A stretch of DNA of 64,000 nucleotides from Thermofilum uzonense (GTDB lineage: Archaea > Thermoproteota > Thermoprotei > Thermofilales > Thermofilaceae). The stretch is taken from NCBI RefSeq assembly GCF_000993805.1, contig NZ_CP009961.1:148001-212000 (forward strand), in the 5' to 3' direction. Every line of letters starts with the position of its first letter. Position 1 is the stretch's first letter. Below are positions 5,451 through 39,650 of this stretch, piece by piece. A model generated the notes under the pieces. It was not told where the DNA came from, ran no database searches, and saw only the letters and a list, made by a program, of their open reading frames with translations. A program made the position numbers and the translations under genes.

Positions 5451-6985
5451 TTTTCTGCGTTTTTCTCAATTTTTTCAAAAACACTTTTGCTTCTCGCTAT
5501 ATCTATCTCCTTTTGAACCTTCTCATTTAGAAAGTAAGTTATCACTCCAATCGCGATGCCTATACCAAGCACGACTGTCTCGAAAGTCGTACTAGAACTA
5601 GGAGCAGAGGTCGTGTCTTTGCTTGTTGCTGGAGGGTTCCAGTCTTTTATATCCTTGAACCCCCAAGATCGGAATAGGGGTGCAAGGTTTTTACCTGCGG
5701 CAATACTTAGGACAGCTACAATGTCATTGGTTGTCTTGACCTTTCCGTAATCCCTTATGGCTTGAAAAAGGCTTTTTATAAACGCTTCGCCATTATAGGT
5801 TGCGCTTAGATTTTCAATTATATAGAAGCTAGCCAAGTATGCGTCTCCCACTAGTTCTGGAACAGTTGGCCAGTGTTGAATCAGGGATAGATTACCCTCG
5901 TAGTATTTGTAAAGTGTACGAGAGGCATTTATCATGTCGTTTCTGAGCTCGGCGACATTATATCCTAGGCCTTCAGCCACACTGATCGAAATGTACTGTG
6001 CTAGCCCCTCGTGGAACCATCGTGTTTCGTCATTTGCTTCGACGCCTGCCTTACCAAGAAAAGCGTGAACCATCTCGTGTATTATCGTAGTTTCAAGGTA
6101 ACCTGGAGCATACCTTATAAGCCCAAGGTTTAACATAATGGGGCCTCTTCCCCCCGCATTGATGTCTTCTCCCATTACGAATCCTAGAGTCGTTATACCT
6201 CCCAAGCTCTGTTTGGGTAGATAGAATCTGAATACAAGCTCCTGTAAGGATACTCCTGTCATGCTAGTTAGATTAGCGTAGGCCTTTGAGGCCACGGTTA
6301 GAACCCTTTGAGCTAAGGACTTGTAAAAAGGTGGCGACTGGACTCTAATTGTGGTGTCGCGTACACTCGTATTAAAATCAACTGTAGTGACGTTAGAGAG
6401 TGTCAGGTATTCTATTACGACCCTACCAGAGATCACGGTAGGAGTGCCGGGAGCGAGAACATATCTTCTATATCCATTTACATTGATCCCCGTTGAGATC
6501 GGGGACTCAAGGGTTATTTTGCCAACGTTTGGTATTTTGACATAAACCTCTATGTTGACAGGAGGTGTAGATACAAGCATAGGGCTCATAAACCAGCCTT
6601 GGTTGTCGGCAAGCAGGCTAGCATAGGGGAATTTATAGCATATGGAGAGAATTGCCGTACCGTTTTCTCCAGGATTAAGATTGATCGTAGAGTTATAGTA
6701 GAAATAAGCGGATGAGGGAGCGTTTACTATTTGTGGAGTACCGTAGCTCTCGCATATTGTGTAGTTTTCGAATCTTGGAAGAGTAAAAAGAATCTTTGTT
6801 TTACCCAGTGTCTTGAATGTGATCTTCACGGTGGCATTACCTGTGTCATCTACGTTTATAACGGCTTTGATTGTAGGTAAAGGCTCAGCTTTAAATACAT
6901 GGATATTATTGAGGATGAGAAATGACAGAATGATAAGTAGAATAATACCTGTCGATGTTTCTTTAATTTCGTGTCGTGATGGCAT
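5429..6985 (-). CDS. Membrane-anchored gluzincin-type metallopeptidase
   Basis: A 518-residue protein with an N-terminal hydrophobic segment (residues 13-31, signal-like), a long beta-rich region with many N-glycosylation sites, a zinc site H-E-M-V-H near residue 302, the third-ligand motif H-E-G-L-A-Q-Y about 20 residues later, and a C-terminal membrane helix near residues 475-495 ending in a charged cytoplasmic tail. The HExxH plus downstream E layout is that of gluzincins (M1/M61-like). It is therefore probably an outward-facing protease tethered to the membrane. Substrate unknown. It starts at an ATG and stands alone. Confidence 0.8.
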   Translation of the reverse strand: MPSRHEIKETSTGIILLIILSFLILNNIHVFKAEPLPTIKAVINVDDTGNATVKITFKTLGKTKILFTLPRFENYTICESYGTPQIVNAPSSAYFYYNSTINLNPGENGTAILSICYKFPYASLLADNQGWFMSPMLVSTPPVNIEVYVKIPNVGKITLESPISTGINVNGYRRYVLAPGTPTVISGRVVIEYLTLSNVTTVDFNTSVRDTTIRVQSPPFYKSLAQRVLTVASKAYANLTSMTGVSLQELVFRFYLPKQSLGGITTLGFVMGEDINAGGRGPIMLNLGLIRYAPGYLETTIIHEMVHAFLGKAGVEANDETRWFHEGLAQYISISVAEGLGYNVAELRNDMINASRTLYKYYEGNLSLIQHWPTVPELVGDAYLASFYIIENLSATYNGEAFIKSLFQAIRDYGKVKTTNDIVAVLSIAAGKNLAPLFRSWGFKDIKDWNPPATSKDTTSAPSSSTTFETVVLGIGIAIGVITYFLNEKVQKEIDIARSKSVFEKIEKNAENHSIFWT

Positions 6986-7067
6986 ATTATCTGTCGTTGA
7001 CTTGGAATGACACCTTAATTAGCTTATTGAGTCAAATGAGAAATTATTAACTCTCAAGTATGCTCTA

Positions 7068-7748
7068 ATGGGGGTTAAAAATTTGACCTCAACGATCAAT
7101 TGTGAGAAAACAGTATTTGTGTCTGACCTTCACTGTAGATCCGGGAGGATTTGCCACCAGTTGGCAATGATCATTAAAGTGTCTCATCTGTTGCAGGCAA
7201 GCTGTCTGGTGGTGGCGGGCGATCTGTTCGAGGATCTTCATTATAGAATCAGCACATACCAGCTGAAGTTTGAAATTTTAAAGCTCGGCCTCCCAACCGA
7301 GCTTCCACCCCTCATTATCTACACACCTAGTTTTTCCTCACATGACCCGATTGTCGATGAAGGCTCCATCAATCTGGGAAGATCTAGAATCTATATACGT
7401 AGAGTGGCCCATATACAATTGGGGGACGATGAAGTTGTGGTGACTCACGGTGATATCGGCATCGCAAACGGGGCTATCGCCCACTTAGTTGATAGAGTTG
7501 GCAGCCTGGTTGGAAGGAAGTTACTCGTGGAGGAAAAGGTCAAAGAGAAGTTAAACCTCAGGAATCAATGGCTTATCATGGGTCACACACATATCCCCGG
7601 ACTTGACACAACTCGTAGAATTGGGAATCCTGGTTCCTGGAAATCAGCCTGGGGAAAATGGCTTCCCTACTGGCGTAAACCCACATATAGCCTGATATTC
7701 TATGACGGTAAAAGTTTTAGGTTGGTTTATCCTCTAAAAACGATATGA
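7068..7748 (+). CDS. Calcineurin-like metallophosphoesterase
   Basis: This 226-residue protein carries the metal-site motifs of the metallophosphoesterase fold in order: S-D-L-H-C near residue 20, A-G-D-L-F near residue 50, V-T-H-G-D near residue 125 and G-H-T-H-I-P near residue 170. The usual G-N-H-[DE] motif is not evident: the matching region reads Y-T-P-S-F-S-S-H-D. So one ligand position may be altered. The ATG start follows an AT-rich leader. Its stop overlaps the start of the nucleoside phosphorylase gene by 4 bases (ATGA), so the two are translationally coupled and the enzyme may work on a nucleotide or nucleoside phosphate, but the substrate is not known. Confidence 0.8.
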   Translation: MGVKNLTSTINCEKTVFVSDLHCRSGRICHQLAMIIKVSHLLQASCLVVAGDLFEDLHYRISTYQLKFEILKLGLPTELPPLIIYTPSFSSHDPIVDEGSINLGRSRIYIRRVAHIQLGDDEVVVTHGDIGIANGAIAHLVDRVGSLVGRKLLVEEKVKEKLNLRNQWLIMGHTHIPGLDTTRRIGNPGSWKSAWGKWLPYWRKPTYSLIFYDGKSFRLVYPLKTI

Positions 7749-8485
7749 CATATTATCATCCTCTCTCGAAAAAACCTTACCATATATTGGCGAAGCCAGG
7801 TGATATTGCCGAACGAGTTGTGGTCTCAGGAGATCCCCAACGCGTCGAGAGGGCCTCAAAGCTGCTTGAAAATCCACGTGTGGTTAACACTCATAGAGGA
7901 TACCTTGTGGTTACCGGCAAATACAAGGGTACGGAGGTGACGCTGGCCACTCACGGCATAGGTGCTCCTTCGGCTGCCATTGTCTTTGAAGAATTAGTTA
8001 TGCTGGGCGCTAAGGTTATCATTAGGGCTGGTACCTGTGGGGCTATTAGGAAAGAGGCTGGATTGGGCACGCTGGCAATAATAGAGGCTTCAGCTTATAC
8101 TCCAGGGGGCACCTTAGGGATGTATTTCCCAGGTGTTTCATATCCAGCCTACGCGACGCCTGAAGTCGTCCTTGAACTAGAAAACGCGGCTAAGCGCCTT
8201 AACACACCATATTTCAGAGGCGTAGCGCTTTCGCATGATGCATTCCACATGGTTGAGCGAAAGGCCCATGAGTGGGCTCAGCTCGGGATCGATTTCCTAG
8301 AGATGGAATCTGCTATTCTCTATGCACTTGCAAGGCTACGAGGCTTTAAGGCTGGAGCCGTGGCACTAGTCGTGGACAACATGTCTACGGGACAAGAACT
8401 AACCGAAAACAAAACACAATTAGAGCTTTCAATGATAAAAACAGTCTTAGAGGCAATCACATCCTTTAAGATGGGAGGGTCTTGA
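7745..8485 (+). CDS. Purine-nucleoside phosphorylase family protein (PNP/UDP family)
   Basis: A 246-residue phosphorylase that would split nucleosides with phosphate for base salvage. Family marks are G-D-P-Q-R near residue 30 (phosphate site), the A-T-H-G-I-G-A-P-S-A-A-I-V-F-E-E-L stretch, R-A-G-T-C-G near residue 100, and the ribose-binding E-M-E-S near residue 182. A V-V-D-N segment near residue 207 supplies an aspartate where E. coli PNP has its catalytic Asp, which favours purine substrates. The gene lies in an operon with the phosphoesterase before it and taw3 after it. A second family member with Asn at this place is encoded at 62755-63465. Confidence 0.88.
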   Translation: MTYYHPLSKKPYHILAKPGDIAERVVVSGDPQRVERASKLLENPRVVNTHRGYLVVTGKYKGTEVTLATHGIGAPSAAIVFEELVMLGAKVIIRAGTCGAIRKEAGLGTLAIIEASAYTPGGTLGMYFPGVSYPAYATPEVVLELENAAKRLNTPYFRGVALSHDAFHMVERKAHEWAQLGIDFLEMESAILYALARLRGFKAGAVALVVDNMSTGQELTENKTQLELSMIKTVLEAITSFKMGGS

Positions 8486-9072
8486 GCACAAATAAGTGGA
8501 ATGAACTTAGGGATCTAGCATTAAAACAGCTAGAAGAACACAAGCTTCAAGGACGCGTCGACCAGGATATAGTGTGGTTACTAGATCTAATAAATTCCTC
8601 GCCTGATTACTACACAACTAGCAGTTGTAGCGGTAGAATCCAGGTGGCAGCGGGGGCACATCCAGGCGATAAGGGCAAACTTCGTGTAATTGCAAAGTGG
8701 CATCGCATTATCCAACCAGAGGAGCTAACCCTTGTATTGTCCTCCACGAATGAAGACAACGTTTGGTTTTCTGTTCATCCCCCGATCTTCCATGTAGTTG
8801 CAAGGGATCTGCGAGCAGCTAAACGTCTTCTCGTTGCGGCTAGAAACTCGGGATTCAAGCACAGTGGTATTCAAGGCTTAGGAAAGCGTATAATTGTCGA
8901 GATAATGTCTATGGAGAAGATTGAGACACCACTGAGATTACATGGCATACAGATAGTTGGCTATGACTCTTTAGTCTTACTAGTTGAGGCTGCTAATCAA
9001 GCTTTATTACGTGGTAAGAGAAGGCTTTCACGTCTGGCCGAAGTATTCTACAGTAGAGATAAAACATCATGA
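8482..9072 (+). CDS. taw3: tRNA wybutosine-synthesising protein Taw3 (TYW3 family)
   Basis: The 196-residue protein matches the TYW3 family, which methylates the tricyclic wyosine base at position 37 of tRNA-Phe. The conserved core is Y-Y-T-T-S-S-C-S-G-R-I near residues 43-53, followed by K-W-H after a short G-rich loop, and later S-G-I-Q near residue 134 and H-G-I-Q near residue 153. The start is TTG at 8482, whose bases overlap the TGA of the phosphorylase gene, so the order phosphoesterase-phosphorylase-taw3 forms one operon. The other wyosine enzymes (Taw1, Taw2, Trm5) are not in the window. The 3' end overlaps the convergent regulator gene by 6 bases. Confidence 0.9.
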   Translation: MSTNKWNELRDLALKQLEEHKLQGRVDQDIVWLLDLINSSPDYYTTSSCSGRIQVAAGAHPGDKGKLRVIAKWHRIIQPEELTLVLSSTNEDNVWFSVHPPIFHVVARDLRAAKRLLVAARNSGFKHSGIQGLGKRIIVEIMSMEKIETPLRLHGIQIVGYDSLVLLVEAANQALLRGKRRLSRLAEVFYSRDKTS

Positions 9073-35210: not shown

Positions 35211-35630
35211 GTGGATAACGTGGGTGAGTTTATAAAGCTGTTCGCAAGCAACCTAACTAACTGGGTACAAGCTCAGAAGACATTCCTGGACTCTGCGCGC
35301 TCAATAGAGACTGACCTTGTCAATGCGGATCGACTGGAGTTGATACTGGCTACTCGTGCGGCATTCACCCACATGGTTAAAACAATAGAGGCTTTTGACA
35401 AGTGGTTGCAGGATCCCTTTATAGTAGGTCATATGCCTAGAGAGATGCTCTTAGACATACAGAGAAATGTTTGGGAGATTTTAAAGAAACTTCTTGAACT
35501 CGATATAAAACATACCTCAGAGTTCAGAGACATGTTATTGAAATTAGCTGAGGAAGGCAAGTTAAATCCTCTCCTCTTTGCACCTAGAGAGGAGTCTAGA
35601 AGGGAGGATAGATTTCATATAAGCTATTGA
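35211..35630 (+). CDS. Hypothetical helical protein (DUF2153-like)
   Basis: 139 residues, almost all alpha-helical, with heptad-like leucines and a tryptophan pair (W-V-Q near residue 18, K-W-L-Q near residue 65). I think it resembles the small crenarchaeal family called DUF2153, but from memory only. No catalytic motif is visible. The GTG start at 35211 lies 51 bases after deoA, and the UbiD-family gene follows after 29 bases, so the three may be co-transcribed. Confidence 0.6.
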   Translation: MDNVGEFIKLFASNLTNWVQAQKTFLDSARSIETDLVNADRLELILATRAAFTHMVKTIEAFDKWLQDPFIVGHMPREMLLDIQRNVWEILKKLLELDIKHTSEFRDMLLKLAEEGKLNPLLFAPREESRREDRFHISY

Positions 35631-35659: not shown

Positions 35660-37069
35660 GTGAGCATAGGGGACCTTGTGGAGACTTTGAGGAACGGTAA
35701 GCATTTGATTGAAATCGAGGAGAGCGTTTTAGCCGACTACGAACTTCCTTGGTTTACCGTCAACCTAGCTCGTAAAACGTCGAAAGCATTACTTTTTAAA
35801 GATGTAGTGGATAAGGAGTACCCAGTTACGACGAATATCTATTTGGGCAAGATAGATATATCTTTTCACAACAGTACATCACTAATAGTTGAAAATTTTA
35901 AGAGGCTTATCTCGATCCTTCTTAACGTATCATTAGACCCTTCCTCTAAGATAAGCGTTTTAGCCTCATTTGCCTGGATCTCCGACGTATACCCGAGAGT
36001 CGTAGGAAGCCAGGGATTCCTAAGACGCTCGGCACTTGAATTTGACCTCACAGGTCTGCCAGCAGTAAGACATACAGCCCGAGAAGAGCACCCGGTTATC
36101 AAAAACCCAGTTATTCTACTCTCGGATCCGAAGACTGGCCAAACAATATTATTCTCAGAACCAGTCCAGGTTATAGATGAGAAGACCCTACTCGTTCACA
36201 TACCCAGATCATCGAAAGCTTTTATGTTTCTAGAGGAGTCTACAAAACATAGTGAGGCGATTAACGCCGCGATAATAATCGGTGTTTCGCCTTACCTTCA
36301 ACTCGTCTCGAAAATGGATTGGCTTCCTTGGTTTAACAAATATCTGCTCGCAGGTGGTTTATCAGGAGGACCGGTCAACCTAATGAGGGTAGATGGAAAT
36401 CTCTACGTACCTTTTGATGCCGAGACGATTATCTTAGGAGAGCTTGTGCCGGGCGATGTTAGGCCTGAAGGAAAAATGCTCTATGAAGACATGAGATATT
36501 ATGGAGGTTTTCCAATGCCTTTAGTACGTGCGAAAGCCCTGATGCACAAGCCTGAACCCGTATTTTATACGTCGATAACGCATCCATACCTTAGTGACGA
36601 GTATGCTCTTAACAATCTGCGAGAACAACTAATGACGGAGTATGTAAGGCTTCTCGCTCCCGATGTTTCCTATCTAAGCTTTCTAAGCTTCGACGCGTAT
36701 AGAACAGTAGTCGTCGGCTTAAAAAATGCGAACTCAAGGCGTGCTTACGAGATAGGTGTTCTTCTATTTTCTCTAAAGCTCACTCCTTATCTTGACACTG
36801 TAGTGGTAGTATCGGCCGAAAACAAAGTTGAGAAGGTTGAGAATCTTGCCTCAATGCTTTTGACCTCACTTGCCTCAAATAGAATCCTATACTTTGAAAA
36901 TCCTCAAGAAGAGGAGTTATTGAGAGATGCACGTCGCGAGAAAGTAATAGTTGATGCTACCTCTCTACGCTTAGATTATATTTCAGAAAGAGATGTTTTA
37001 ACTAGCGACGAATTCAAAGATTCCCGTGAAAAATACGAGAAGATTCTGCAAGAACTTCGGGGTGAGTAG
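35660..37069 (+). CDS. UbiD-family (de)carboxylase, divergent
   Basis: 469 residues. The family is shown best by V-P-F-D-A-E-T-I-I-L-G-E-L-V-P-G-D near residue 251, followed by P-E-G-K-M-x-x-E-D-M-R-Y-Y-G-G, which corresponds to the prFMN-dependent enzymes' P-x-D-A-E-x-V-x-E-G and (P)EG(P) stretch. The N-terminal L-x-x-L-R-N-G-x-x-L-I-E-I-E-E pattern also fits. Much of the middle is diverged. In archaea one UbiD branch is anhydromevalonate phosphate decarboxylase of the modified mevalonate route, a plausible role here but not proven. The UbiX partner is not in the window. Its last 56 bases overlap the convergent regulator gene. Confidence 0.75.
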   Translation: MSIGDLVETLRNGKHLIEIEESVLADYELPWFTVNLARKTSKALLFKDVVDKEYPVTTNIYLGKIDISFHNSTSLIVENFKRLISILLNVSLDPSSKISVLASFAWISDVYPRVVGSQGFLRRSALEFDLTGLPAVRHTAREEHPVIKNPVILLSDPKTGQTILFSEPVQVIDEKTLLVHIPRSSKAFMFLEESTKHSEAINAAIIIGVSPYLQLVSKMDWLPWFNKYLLAGGLSGGPVNLMRVDGNLYVPFDAETIILGELVPGDVRPEGKMLYEDMRYYGGFPMPLVRAKALMHKPEPVFYTSITHPYLSDEYALNNLREQLMTEYVRLLAPDVSYLSFLSFDAYRTVVVGLKNANSRRAYEIGVLLFSLKLTPYLDTVVVVSAENKVEKVENLASMLLTSLASNRILYFENPQEEELLRDARREKVIVDATSLRLDYISERDVLTSDEFKDSREKYEKILQELRGE

Positions 37070-37589: not shown

Positions 37590-37751
37590 ATGCCCGAAAA
37601 AATCATGGCATACTGCGTTAAGTGCCGCAAACAGGTCGAAATGAAGAACCCTCAGCAGGTAACTCTTAAGAACGGCAGGCTTGCTTACAAGGGCACATGC
37701 CCTCACTGTGGCACTACTGTCTACAGATTCATTGGCAGGGTAAAACAATAA
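37590..37751 (+). CDS. Small zinc-ribbon protein (DUF5679-like)
   Basis: A 53-residue protein with two Cys pairs, C-V-K-C near residues 9-12 and C-P-H-C near residues 38-41, forming a zinc ribbon. The order Y-C-V-K-C-R-K-x-V-E-M, then K-N-G-R-x-A-x-K-G-x-C-P-x-C-G-T-x-V-Y-R-F-I-G fits the conserved archaeal family DUF5679. A longer antisense frame (37446-37748) is its shadow. A TATA box (GATATATACC, 37549-37558) about 36 bases upstream and an AT-rich stretch after the stop suggest a strongly expressed single gene. The role is unknown; ribosome or nucleic-acid binding is common for such proteins. Confidence 0.82.
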   Translation: MPEKIMAYCVKCRKQVEMKNPQQVTLKNGRLAYKGTCPHCGTTVYRFIGRVKQ

Positions 37752-37822
37752 AGCAGCTAGGAACCTAATAGGAATACATCAAAAATATATTTGCTTTTTC
37801 TCATTTTCTGTTGATGGTTTAG

Positions 37823-38320
37823 ATGAGTAAAGATACTACTCTACTCGAGAAGCTGGAGTTAATGGTTCCAGGTTTCCGAGGATACAAGCAAAAGGAGCTT
37901 ATCCGCGAGGACGATGCCCTTGTAAGGCGCAAGATCGCCTCTATACTGGATGATGCTAGGATTAGAGTAGAGCGTTTGATCTCGGCTGTAAAAAAGAAAA
38001 ATATTTCAGCAGCTCTAAGGCTCGACGACTTGAGACTCGAACTCATGAAAGCTTCTCAGATGATAAAGCATGCAAGTTATGGATACTCCGGCCTCTTCGA
38101 CCGCGTGAAAATTCGCGAGAAGGAACTTCAAACACTCCTCGAACTAGACTACAAACTCTTAACTCAAGCATCAAAAGTAATGGAGAAAGTTCTCGAACTC
38201 TCTACTGTTACGGATCAAGAACTAATGGAGAAAATAAATAACGCCATAGATATCGTGAGGCAAATGGAGGACGACATAAATCAACGTGAAAACCTCTTTA
38301 AGACAGTGGTGAGCGAGTAG
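37823..38320 (+). CDS. Coiled-coil protein paired with an SPFH protein
   Basis: 165 residues, nearly all predicted helix with long amphipathic stretches from about residue 20 to 160 and no glycine-rich or catalytic motif. The helical pattern and basic N-terminal part (G-F-R-G-Y-K-Q-K-E) recall membrane-remodelling helical proteins (PspA/ESCRT-III-like), but I cannot show homology. Its stop shares one base with the GTG of the SPFH-domain gene, so both are coupled. In bacteria, PspA-like proteins work with SPFH proteins, which gives this guess some weight. Confidence 0.7.
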   Translation: MSKDTTLLEKLELMVPGFRGYKQKELIREDDALVRRKIASILDDARIRVERLISAVKKKNISAALRLDDLRLELMKASQMIKHASYGYSGLFDRVKIREKELQTLLELDYKLLTQASKVMEKVLELSTVTDQELMEKINNAIDIVRQMEDDINQRENLFKTVVSE

Positions 38321-39312
38321 TGTCTAAAGGTTCACTTCCTGTGATAAGATGGGTAAACCCTTCACCGGACGATATCGTATGGAGGTATCCAAATGAGGAT
38401 TTAAAGCTAGGCTCGGTCGTCATAGTCGAAGAGTACCAGGCGGCAGTGTTCTTTCGAGATGGAAAAGCATATGACGTTTTGGGTCCTGGGCGTCACGTAT
38501 TATCCACTCTTAATATTCCTTTACTTGCAGAAGCTTACAAGATAGTTTATTCGGAGACTCCATTCAAGGCTACTATCATATTTGTTAATCTTAAACAATT
38601 TCAAGGAAAGTTTGGAGGACAGACCCAAACGCAGGATCTGGCGCCTTTGAAATTCTATGGGAGCTTCTGGTTTAGAGTCGCTGATCCCAAACTTTTTGTG
38701 GTAGAGGTTGTTGGCGCTCAGAGAGCCTACGACACAGAGTCTGTAAACAGGTTTCTAAGAGGATATTTTCTAGAAAATGCCATGGCCTCGCTCAGCAAAT
38801 ACAAACTCGCTGAGGTTTTCTCTAATATTGACAAGGTTACAGCTGAGCTGAAATTCGACCTATTAGAACCCTTCAGGCGTATAGGCTTAGAGCTCATCGA
38901 CATAAAAATGGAGGGACTGGACACGACACCCGAGTACCGCGACAGGATTTTCTGGATTACTCAGACAGGGACAGCTACAGAGGTTATGCGTATGGACACG
39001 ATAAAAAGCGTAGCTCAAGAGCTGGGTAAATCACCTGGAGCCTCGATTGGGACAGGCATGGTAGTGATTCCTCCGCTCTTATACCCTCAGCCTGCCCCCC
39101 AGCAGCCTCCTGCACCAGCTGTAGCTCAACAGCAGCCGCAACAACCACAACAGACCGGCATACAGTGTCCCAAGTGCGGGACCATAAACCCGCCCGGAGC
39201 AAGATTTTGCTACAATTGTGGTACACCCCTGACTAAGAAATGTCCTAAGTGTGGAAACGACGTCCCATTGAACGCAAAATTCTGTCCCTACTGTGGTAAT
39301 CCCCTTACCTAG
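38320..39312 (+). CDS. SPFH/Band 7 domain protein with two C-terminal zinc ribbons
   Basis: 330 residues. The N-terminal two thirds are an SPFH (stomatin/flotillin-like) domain of the 'virion core protein'/YdjI type: V-I-V-E-E-Y-Q-A-A-V-F-F-R-D-G near residue 31, G-P-G-R-H-V-L near residue 54, and a helical segment near residues 135-200. A proline/glutamine linker follows (about 250-283), then two double-Cys zinc ribbons (C-P-K-C-G...C-Y-N-C-G near residue 285 and C-P-K-C-G...C-P-Y-C-G near 309). Such proteins assemble into rings at membranes. It lacks its own strong membrane helix. A small membrane protein gene follows after 8 bases. Confidence 0.88.
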   Translation: MSKGSLPVIRWVNPSPDDIVWRYPNEDLKLGSVVIVEEYQAAVFFRDGKAYDVLGPGRHVLSTLNIPLLAEAYKIVYSETPFKATIIFVNLKQFQGKFGGQTQTQDLAPLKFYGSFWFRVADPKLFVVEVVGAQRAYDTESVNRFLRGYFLENAMASLSKYKLAEVFSNIDKVTAELKFDLLEPFRRIGLELIDIKMEGLDTTPEYRDRIFWITQTGTATEVMRMDTIKSVAQELGKSPGASIGTGMVVIPPLLYPQPAPQQPPAPAVAQQQPQQPQQTGIQCPKCGTINPPGARFCYNCGTPLTKKCPKCGNDVPLNAKFCPYCGNPLT

Positions 39313-39320
39313 GTGAGCAG

Positions 39321-39650
39321 ATGAATTTAGCAACATTGCTCATACTGATTTCATGGGGACTCGCTTTCGTCATTATAGGACTTGGGTTAATCACGGGCTA
39401 CGAAGTCTTCCCGCTGGTAATAACAGTTTCCGGGCTATCCCTACTGTTCAGGGCGTTTGGGGTAAAGTGCCGAGCAGATAAATGCAGGGACAGGGGCTTT
39501 TTGCTTCTATGGTCTGTTTTTCTCCTAGAATCTGGGCCTTTGATAGAGCTTTATAAATATTATCCTTCACCAGCTCTTATCATTGGTATCTTCTTAATAG
39601 TGCTGGCAGTTTCAGCCTACATAATAGATAAAAAATATTCTATAATTTGA
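39321..39650 (+). CDS. Small membrane protein of the SPFH operon
   Basis: 109 residues with hydrophobic stretches near residues 3-25, 28-45, 58-72 and 84-104, and a hydrophilic C-R-A-D-K-C-R-D-R loop near residue 50. Family unknown. It lies 8 bases after the SPFH gene and probably anchors that complex in the membrane, by position only. Its 3' end overlaps the convergent CinA-like gene by 11 bases. Confidence 0.6.
   Translation: MNLATLLILISWGLAFVIIGLGLITGYEVFPLVITVSGLSLLFRAFGVKCRADKCRDRGFLLLWSVFLLESGPLIELYKYYPSPALIIGIFLIVLAVSAYIIDKKYSII

Follow-up and report, generated by a model that had tools for sequence, protein, structure and literature searches.

What do three adjoining genes of the archaeon Thermofilum uzonense do, and is the helical protein encoded by the first of them a relative of PspA? 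An earlier sequence-only reading of the stretch of DNA analysed here (64,000 nucleotides, hereafter the window) had proposed an operon encoding a coiled-coil or long-helix protein, an SPFH protein ending in two zinc ribbons and a small membrane protein, and had likened it to the PspA and SPFH proteins that team up in bacteria. Such teaming is on record for B. subtilis, where, as described in PMC8581546, YdjI is the SPFH partner of PspA and brings it to the membrane, membrane foci of YdjI require YdjG/H, and PspA requires YdjI.

The genome of T. uzonense is a single contig of 1.61 Mb with an estimated completeness of 99.9%. We found the three open reading frames where they had been placed, all on the + strand. 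The one-base overlap between the first two is also real: the stop codon of the first (TAG, 38318-38320) ends on the base at which the GTG of the second begins (38320). A gap of 8 bases separates the second from the third. We refer to the product of the first gene as CC. The features of the locus are as follows.

37781-37792, + strand: TATA-like stretch, AAAAATATATTT, ~30-40 bases 5' of the CC start, picked out from sequence alone
37823-38320, + strand: CC, helical, 165 aa, with the motif E-x6-PGF(R)GYK-x-KE-x2-RExD
37847-37897, + strand: N-terminal conserved motif of CC, residues 9-25
38320-39312, + strand: SPFH-zinc-ribbon protein, 330 aa, GTG start
38377-38940, + strand: SPFH/Band_7_1 domain, residues 20-207
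39073-39159, + strand: P/Q-rich low-complexity linker, approximately residues 252-280
39166-39219, + strand: zinc ribbon 1, CPKC-x10-CYNC
39241-39294, + strand: zinc ribbon 2, CPKC-x10-CPYC
39321-39650, + strand: membrane protein, 109 aa, three TM-like stretches

The TATA-like stretch is a candidate promoter for the operon, and its position would fit a nearly leaderless transcript from the CC start. Just 5' of the operon, on the same strand, lies a gene for a 53-aa zinc-ribbon protein (DUF5679; 37590-37751). A UbiD-family decarboxylase gene is also nearby (35660-37069), preceded by a DUF2153 gene (35211-35630).

We found that the SPFH protein is laid out like YdjI. Its SPFH domain matched Band_7_1 (PF13421) with an E-value of 9.3e-24 (84.7 bits, cut-off 24). 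The two C-terminal zinc ribbons came out as the earlier reading had them (DZR, E 6.8e-16; CPKC..CYNC at residue 283 and CPKC..CPYC at residue 308), and they follow the P/Q-rich linker. A scan of the sequence found no TM-like stretch. When the protein was searched by sequence against solved structures, PknG was the sole match, over the zinc-ribbon part (E 0.005). The PF13421 model also matches in B. subtilis, and we take the protein that it matches there to be YdjI. YdjI is described as having no hydrophobic anchor, a low-complexity region and a zinc finger near the C-terminus (PMC8581546). All of these are present in the SPFH protein from the window: a PF13421 domain, no TM anchor, a low-complexity region and a C-terminal zinc finger. 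No pspA accompanies it, either at the locus or elsewhere, as no match to PspA_IM30 was found in the T. uzonense genome. The same genome encodes a second SPFH protein, with a weak PF13421 match, apart from the CC-SPFH operon (L179:2995-5120); 5' of its gene is one for a membrane protein that is ClpP/NfeD-like by eye. PF13421 also matches in Sulfolobus acidocaldarius, a tractable archaeon.

The pairing of CC with an SPFH gene is conserved. A first-round search of 101 genomes, that of T. uzonense included, gave CC matches in 62. Among 30 of the first-round loci (L003-L032, the window's included), each spanning ~1.5 kb on either side of CC, 26 contained a same-family SPFH gene (upstream of CC in L023 and L028), and in 4 none was found; the SPFH match in L018 is split across short ORFs. 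A scan of named genomes yielded 240 confirmed CC relatives, from which the best 80 were retained, a set biased to close relatives and with some record titles possibly wrong (many Thermococcus sp. MAGs, one 'bacterium'). In 78 of these best 80 of 240 the SPFH gene followed CC on the strand that carries CC, and in 74 it directly adjoined CC. In four loci (L081, L082, L092, L093) ~1.2-1.3 kb separates the two genes. The SPFH gene of L106 is on the opposite strand, and in L083 the contig continues for 743 bases after CC, with no SPFH match. In L101, from a record titled Candidatus Bathyarchaeota, the SPFH protein adjoining CC is longer (529 aa; 5517-7109).

In a sample of 24 more distant genomes, chosen mainly for weaker CC matches and viewed over the same ~1.5 kb on each side, an SPFH gene was in the locus in 20 and on the same strand in 19. 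It was not found in the other 4, two of which are probably chance CC matches. The linkage between CC and SPFH is far beyond chance, and on this point, which the sequence-only reading had offered as a way to refute itself, the reading holds.

CC also occurs in bacteria. One of the named loci (L098) comes from an Anaerolineae bacterium, whose phylum is presumably Chloroflexota. We found CC in 32 of 201 genomes of that phylum, and an SPFH gene beside it in 16 of 30 loci examined. No SPFH match was found in the remaining 14 loci; in 12 of these (L124-L126, L129, L130, L132, L135, L137, L138 and L140-L142), CC is followed by a gene for a protein of 440-495 aa without TM stretches. The one that was typed, in L125, is a fused FAD-binding/2Fe-2S subunit of the molybdopterin-dehydrogenase type. 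By eye its counterpart in L126 resembles it and that in L144, a thirteenth locus, does not. Because an SPFH-less CC gene lies beside such a subunit, CC may have other roles. In Chloroflexota loci that do contain both genes, further neighbours are a TM protein ending in a CxxC pair and a protein matching DUF2207_C (L122:2041-3387 and L139:11-1472). The former has two TM stretches; its CxxC pair was recognised by eye, and zinc-ribbon models match it below cut-off.

Is CC a PspA or ESCRT-III protein? Profile comparisons do not support this part of the earlier reading. The window's CC matched no Pfam family above cut-off. Across 77 CC sequences (alignment A2, from which the near-duplicates L082, L105, L107 and L108 among the 80 were excluded), eleven residues are invariant: E9, P16, G17, G20, Y21, K22, R28, R35, G87, D109 and R155. 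None of the 77 matched PspA_IM30 or Snf7 (Pfam, E 0.01). At that threshold 18 Pfam families were matched, each by at most 4 members. These include the ALIX V domain (E 0.0066, weak) and EzrA (E 3.6e-4), each matched by a single member and each a match of coiled-coil type. Comparison of the CC family with seven archaeal PspA proteins by hhalign, done without a positive control, gave a probability of 0.9% over 38 columns; no relation of CC to PspA was detectable.

A relation to a different family was apparent. The NCBIfam model NF047596 (LIMLP_15305, uncharacterised) was matched by 73 of the 77 CC proteins, with a best E-value of 9.7e-21. The window's CC matched it with E 2.9e-10 and 40.3 bits, below the curated equivalog cut-off of 210. 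This suggests that CC is homologous to the LIMLP_15305 family below the equivalog level. Diverged CC paralogues, changed in sequence after the PGFRGY motif, occur in two genomes from the genus of T. uzonense (G003 and G004), which have two CC copies each; no SPFH match was found in the loci of these paralogues (L009 and L011).

The predicted structure of CC is helical, with helices shorter than the term long-helix had implied. An AlphaFold2 monomer model built from the 77 sequences (pLDDT 84.0, pTM 0.80) has helices at residues 3-14, 24-56, 61-82, 99-126 and 131-157; the last four are 33, 22, 28 and 27 residues long, so that the helical character of the protein stands and its long helix was overstated. 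The long helical hairpin (alpha1-3) of PspA does not appear in the monomer model of CC. A helical hairpin is common to the PspA/ESCRT-III superfamily according to the title of PMC12636044. The N-terminal helix (residues 3-14) is weakly amphipathic, with a moment of 0.17.

Searches against solved structures gave helical matches of a general kind. The CC profile matched helical or coiled-coil chains weakly (46 sequences up to E 10, the best at 0.024), and the best Foldseek E-value for the model among the matches listed was 4.4e-3. With VIA-align, the top match among those listed, and the nearest solved fold, was the soluble domain of Chlamydia IncA (6e6a, 6e7e; Z 13.6, rmsd 2.9 A over 140 residues), followed by a match with Z 11.2. 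IncA differs from CC in its biology and is only 14-15% identical, and the resemblance may reflect a common helical arrangement only. These helical-bundle matches suggest that CC would itself fold as a helical bundle. No PspA, Vipp1 or ESCRT-III chain was among the best 50 Foldseek or VIA-align matches listed, an absence that excludes nothing. As far as a monomer prediction goes, the fold of CC is unlike that of PspA/ESCRT-III. CC is thus not identified as a PspA/ESCRT-III protein, and probably is not one.

The third gene encodes a small membrane protein, as had been proposed, with three hydrophobic stretches of 19 residues; it matched no family in either Pfam or NCBIfam. Relatives of it, small proteins with 3-4 TM stretches, occur in at least 22 of the 80 named loci, a lower bound because CC dropped out of the gene table for five loci (L040, L048, L089, L096 and L098). 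The gene follows SPFH at a distance of no more than 260 bases in 12 loci, lies just before CC in 7, and is farther away in 3. The family was defined by single linkage at E 0.01, which joined 23 of 34 candidates (the window's protein included) and left out 11; such links can be inflated by hydrophobic composition. The window's protein is linked directly to two relatives, with E-values of 1e-29 and 8e-6.

A further recurring component is a family of zinc-ribbon proteins, most of which have one or two TM-like stretches. They are encoded in 37 of the 80 named loci, in 30 of which two or more occur together; some members of the family, of ~250 aa, have no TM stretches. In one Thermofilaceae locus (L091) CC, SPFH, the small TM protein and a zinc-ribbon/TM pair (6880-8756) stand in one row. 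The corresponding pair in T. uzonense consists of overlapping genes away from the operon (C1:923258-925149; L178:5259-7150). A model of the L091 zinc-ribbon/TM protein (pLDDT 93.7, pTM 0.86) contains a confident beta domain with strands of up to 33 residues. Searches with this whole-protein model gave no clear solved match, either by Foldseek (best E 0.023, TM-scores near 0.1) or by VIA (best Z 4.2, for 4exr over 64 residues at 2.7 A). The five zinc-ribbon/TM proteins that were typed matched no Pfam family over cut-off. As a lead only, they resemble YdjG, which is described as combining zinc ribbons with a YpeB-related domain (PMC11237479).

We compared the distributions of CC and PspA within Thermoproteota. 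CC matches, weak ones included, were found in 207 of 398 genomes, at least 2 of which look like chance (G534, E 2.7e-4, within an ORF of 541 aa, and G387, E 5.4e-4, within one of 684 aa). PspA_IM30 matched over cut-off in 8 of the 398; at E 0.001 there were 52 such genomes, 44 of them below cut-off. Only one genome (G480) had both CC and PspA. PF13421 was over cut-off in two of the eight PspA genomes. In G480 a strong PF13421 match adjoins CC, and PspA is on another contig. In G606 a marginal match (27.8 bits, cut-off 24) lies ~660 kb from PspA. On these small numbers, the YdjI-type SPFH protein accompanies CC, and not PspA, within Thermoproteota. The low overlap (1 of 8) is suggestive of mutual exclusion (p ~0.03, uncorrected), which we do not claim because the eight PspA genomes come from two families.

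What might the three genes do together? We give about an even chance to the reading that they are a PspA-free variant of a YdjI-type membrane module, which would probably act by sensing or organising membrane regions that are stressed or fluid. We infer a physical complex in which the three gene products would form one module at the membrane, on its cytosolic side. The anchorless SPFH-zinc-ribbon protein would oligomerise there, as SPFH proteins do. By analogy, its anchors may be the small TM protein together with the zinc-ribbon/TM pair, a proposal against which the position of that pair outside the operon in T. uzonense counts. CC, whose gene stands where pspA does in pspA-ydjGHI, would be the dedicated partner that the SPFH protein recruits or that caps it. 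Of the membrane module proposed earlier, the linkage and the YdjI-like SPFH protein stand, and the PspA/ESCRT-III-like nature of the first protein does not. As far as sequence goes, the module could serve to protect the membrane, to assemble complexes or to carry out quality control.

The gene position that CC shares with PspA, beside a YdjI-type SPFH protein, would also fit if CC were a PspA/ESCRT-III protein diverged past recognition, polymerising on the membrane and recruited by the SPFH protein. Its almost wholly helical nature, a possible hairpin at residues 24-82 of the model and the single weak ALIX V and EzrA matches among the 77 point the same way, but the profile and hhalign results, the lengths of the model helices and an N-terminal helix that is not strongly amphipathic make such an origin very unlikely. 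Another reading is that the module helps to remodel membranes, for instance when cells divide or shed vesicles, in a lineage where no ESCRT-III is recognisable. The lack of a Snf7 match in the T. uzonense genome would be consistent with it, but the Snf7 model is insensitive and falls below cut-off even in Sulfolobus. PMC10936438 links ESCRT-III with SPFH proteins in other archaea and calls the division system of Thermoproteales uncharacterised, in a statement that does not name Thermofilum. CC is spread over many families of Thermoproteota and also present in Chloroflexota, and so is not tied to the absence of another division system; we consider remodelling very unlikely.

Acting as a scaffold for proteases or for respiratory complexes is common among SPFH proteins. 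The SPFH protein could likewise be a scaffold for the quality control or assembly of membrane complexes (compare HflK/C and the prohibitins), with CC as adaptor or chaperone and stress or repair secondary. We consider this possible, though less likely than not. Zinc ribbons are suited to protein binding, and one Chloroflexota CC gene (in L125) adjoins a CO-dehydrogenase-type subunit. For the band-7 partners of PspA, Ravi et al. argue that their roles are chaperone-like (PMC11237479). Against a scaffold, no constant enzyme partner was found at the 80 loci, where most neighbours are known by length and TM count, so that a protease or client gene may be among them.

The YdjI-type module with a partner other than PspA offers named genes for the study of membrane guarding in archaea that lack Psp proteins; Popp et al. 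found no Psp domain of any kind in over 50% of 915 genomes of archaea (PMC9239133). A broader proposal, which we regard as rather doubtful, is that a counterpart of the phage-shock system, free of PspA, is present in about half of the Thermoproteota sampled. It would be an SPFH-zinc-ribbon assembly with CC as a hitherto undescribed helical effector and, as anchor, the zinc-ribbon protein whose beta domain is large, ancient, shared with Chloroflexota, and protecting ether-lipid membranes without ESCRT-III chemistry.

How does the locus compare with known systems? No description of a CC-SPFH operon was found in the literature searched, as judged from search listings, and none is given in the available part of the classification of prokaryotic SPFH proteins by Hinderhofer et al. 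(PMC2636767). Some archaea have been described as having ESCRT loci that include an SPFH protein with a zinc ribbon (PMC10936438); in those of the Meth_adaptin clade this protein is encoded with membrane-associated helical proteins, as here, but these are Vps4/ESCRT-III systems, and no Snf7 match was found in the genome of T. uzonense. Operons of PspA, band-7 and zinc-ribbon proteins have been described in Firmicutes (PMC11237479). The pspA-ydjGHI operon of B. subtilis shares with the locus an anchorless SPFH protein with a low-complexity region and a C-terminal zinc finger, and an operon that joins a helical partner to membrane proteins, of which one carries zinc ribbons. It differs in that the partner here, CC, is not recognisable as PspA, and in that the places of YdjG and YdjH would be taken here by small 3-4 TM proteins and zinc-ribbon/TM proteins.
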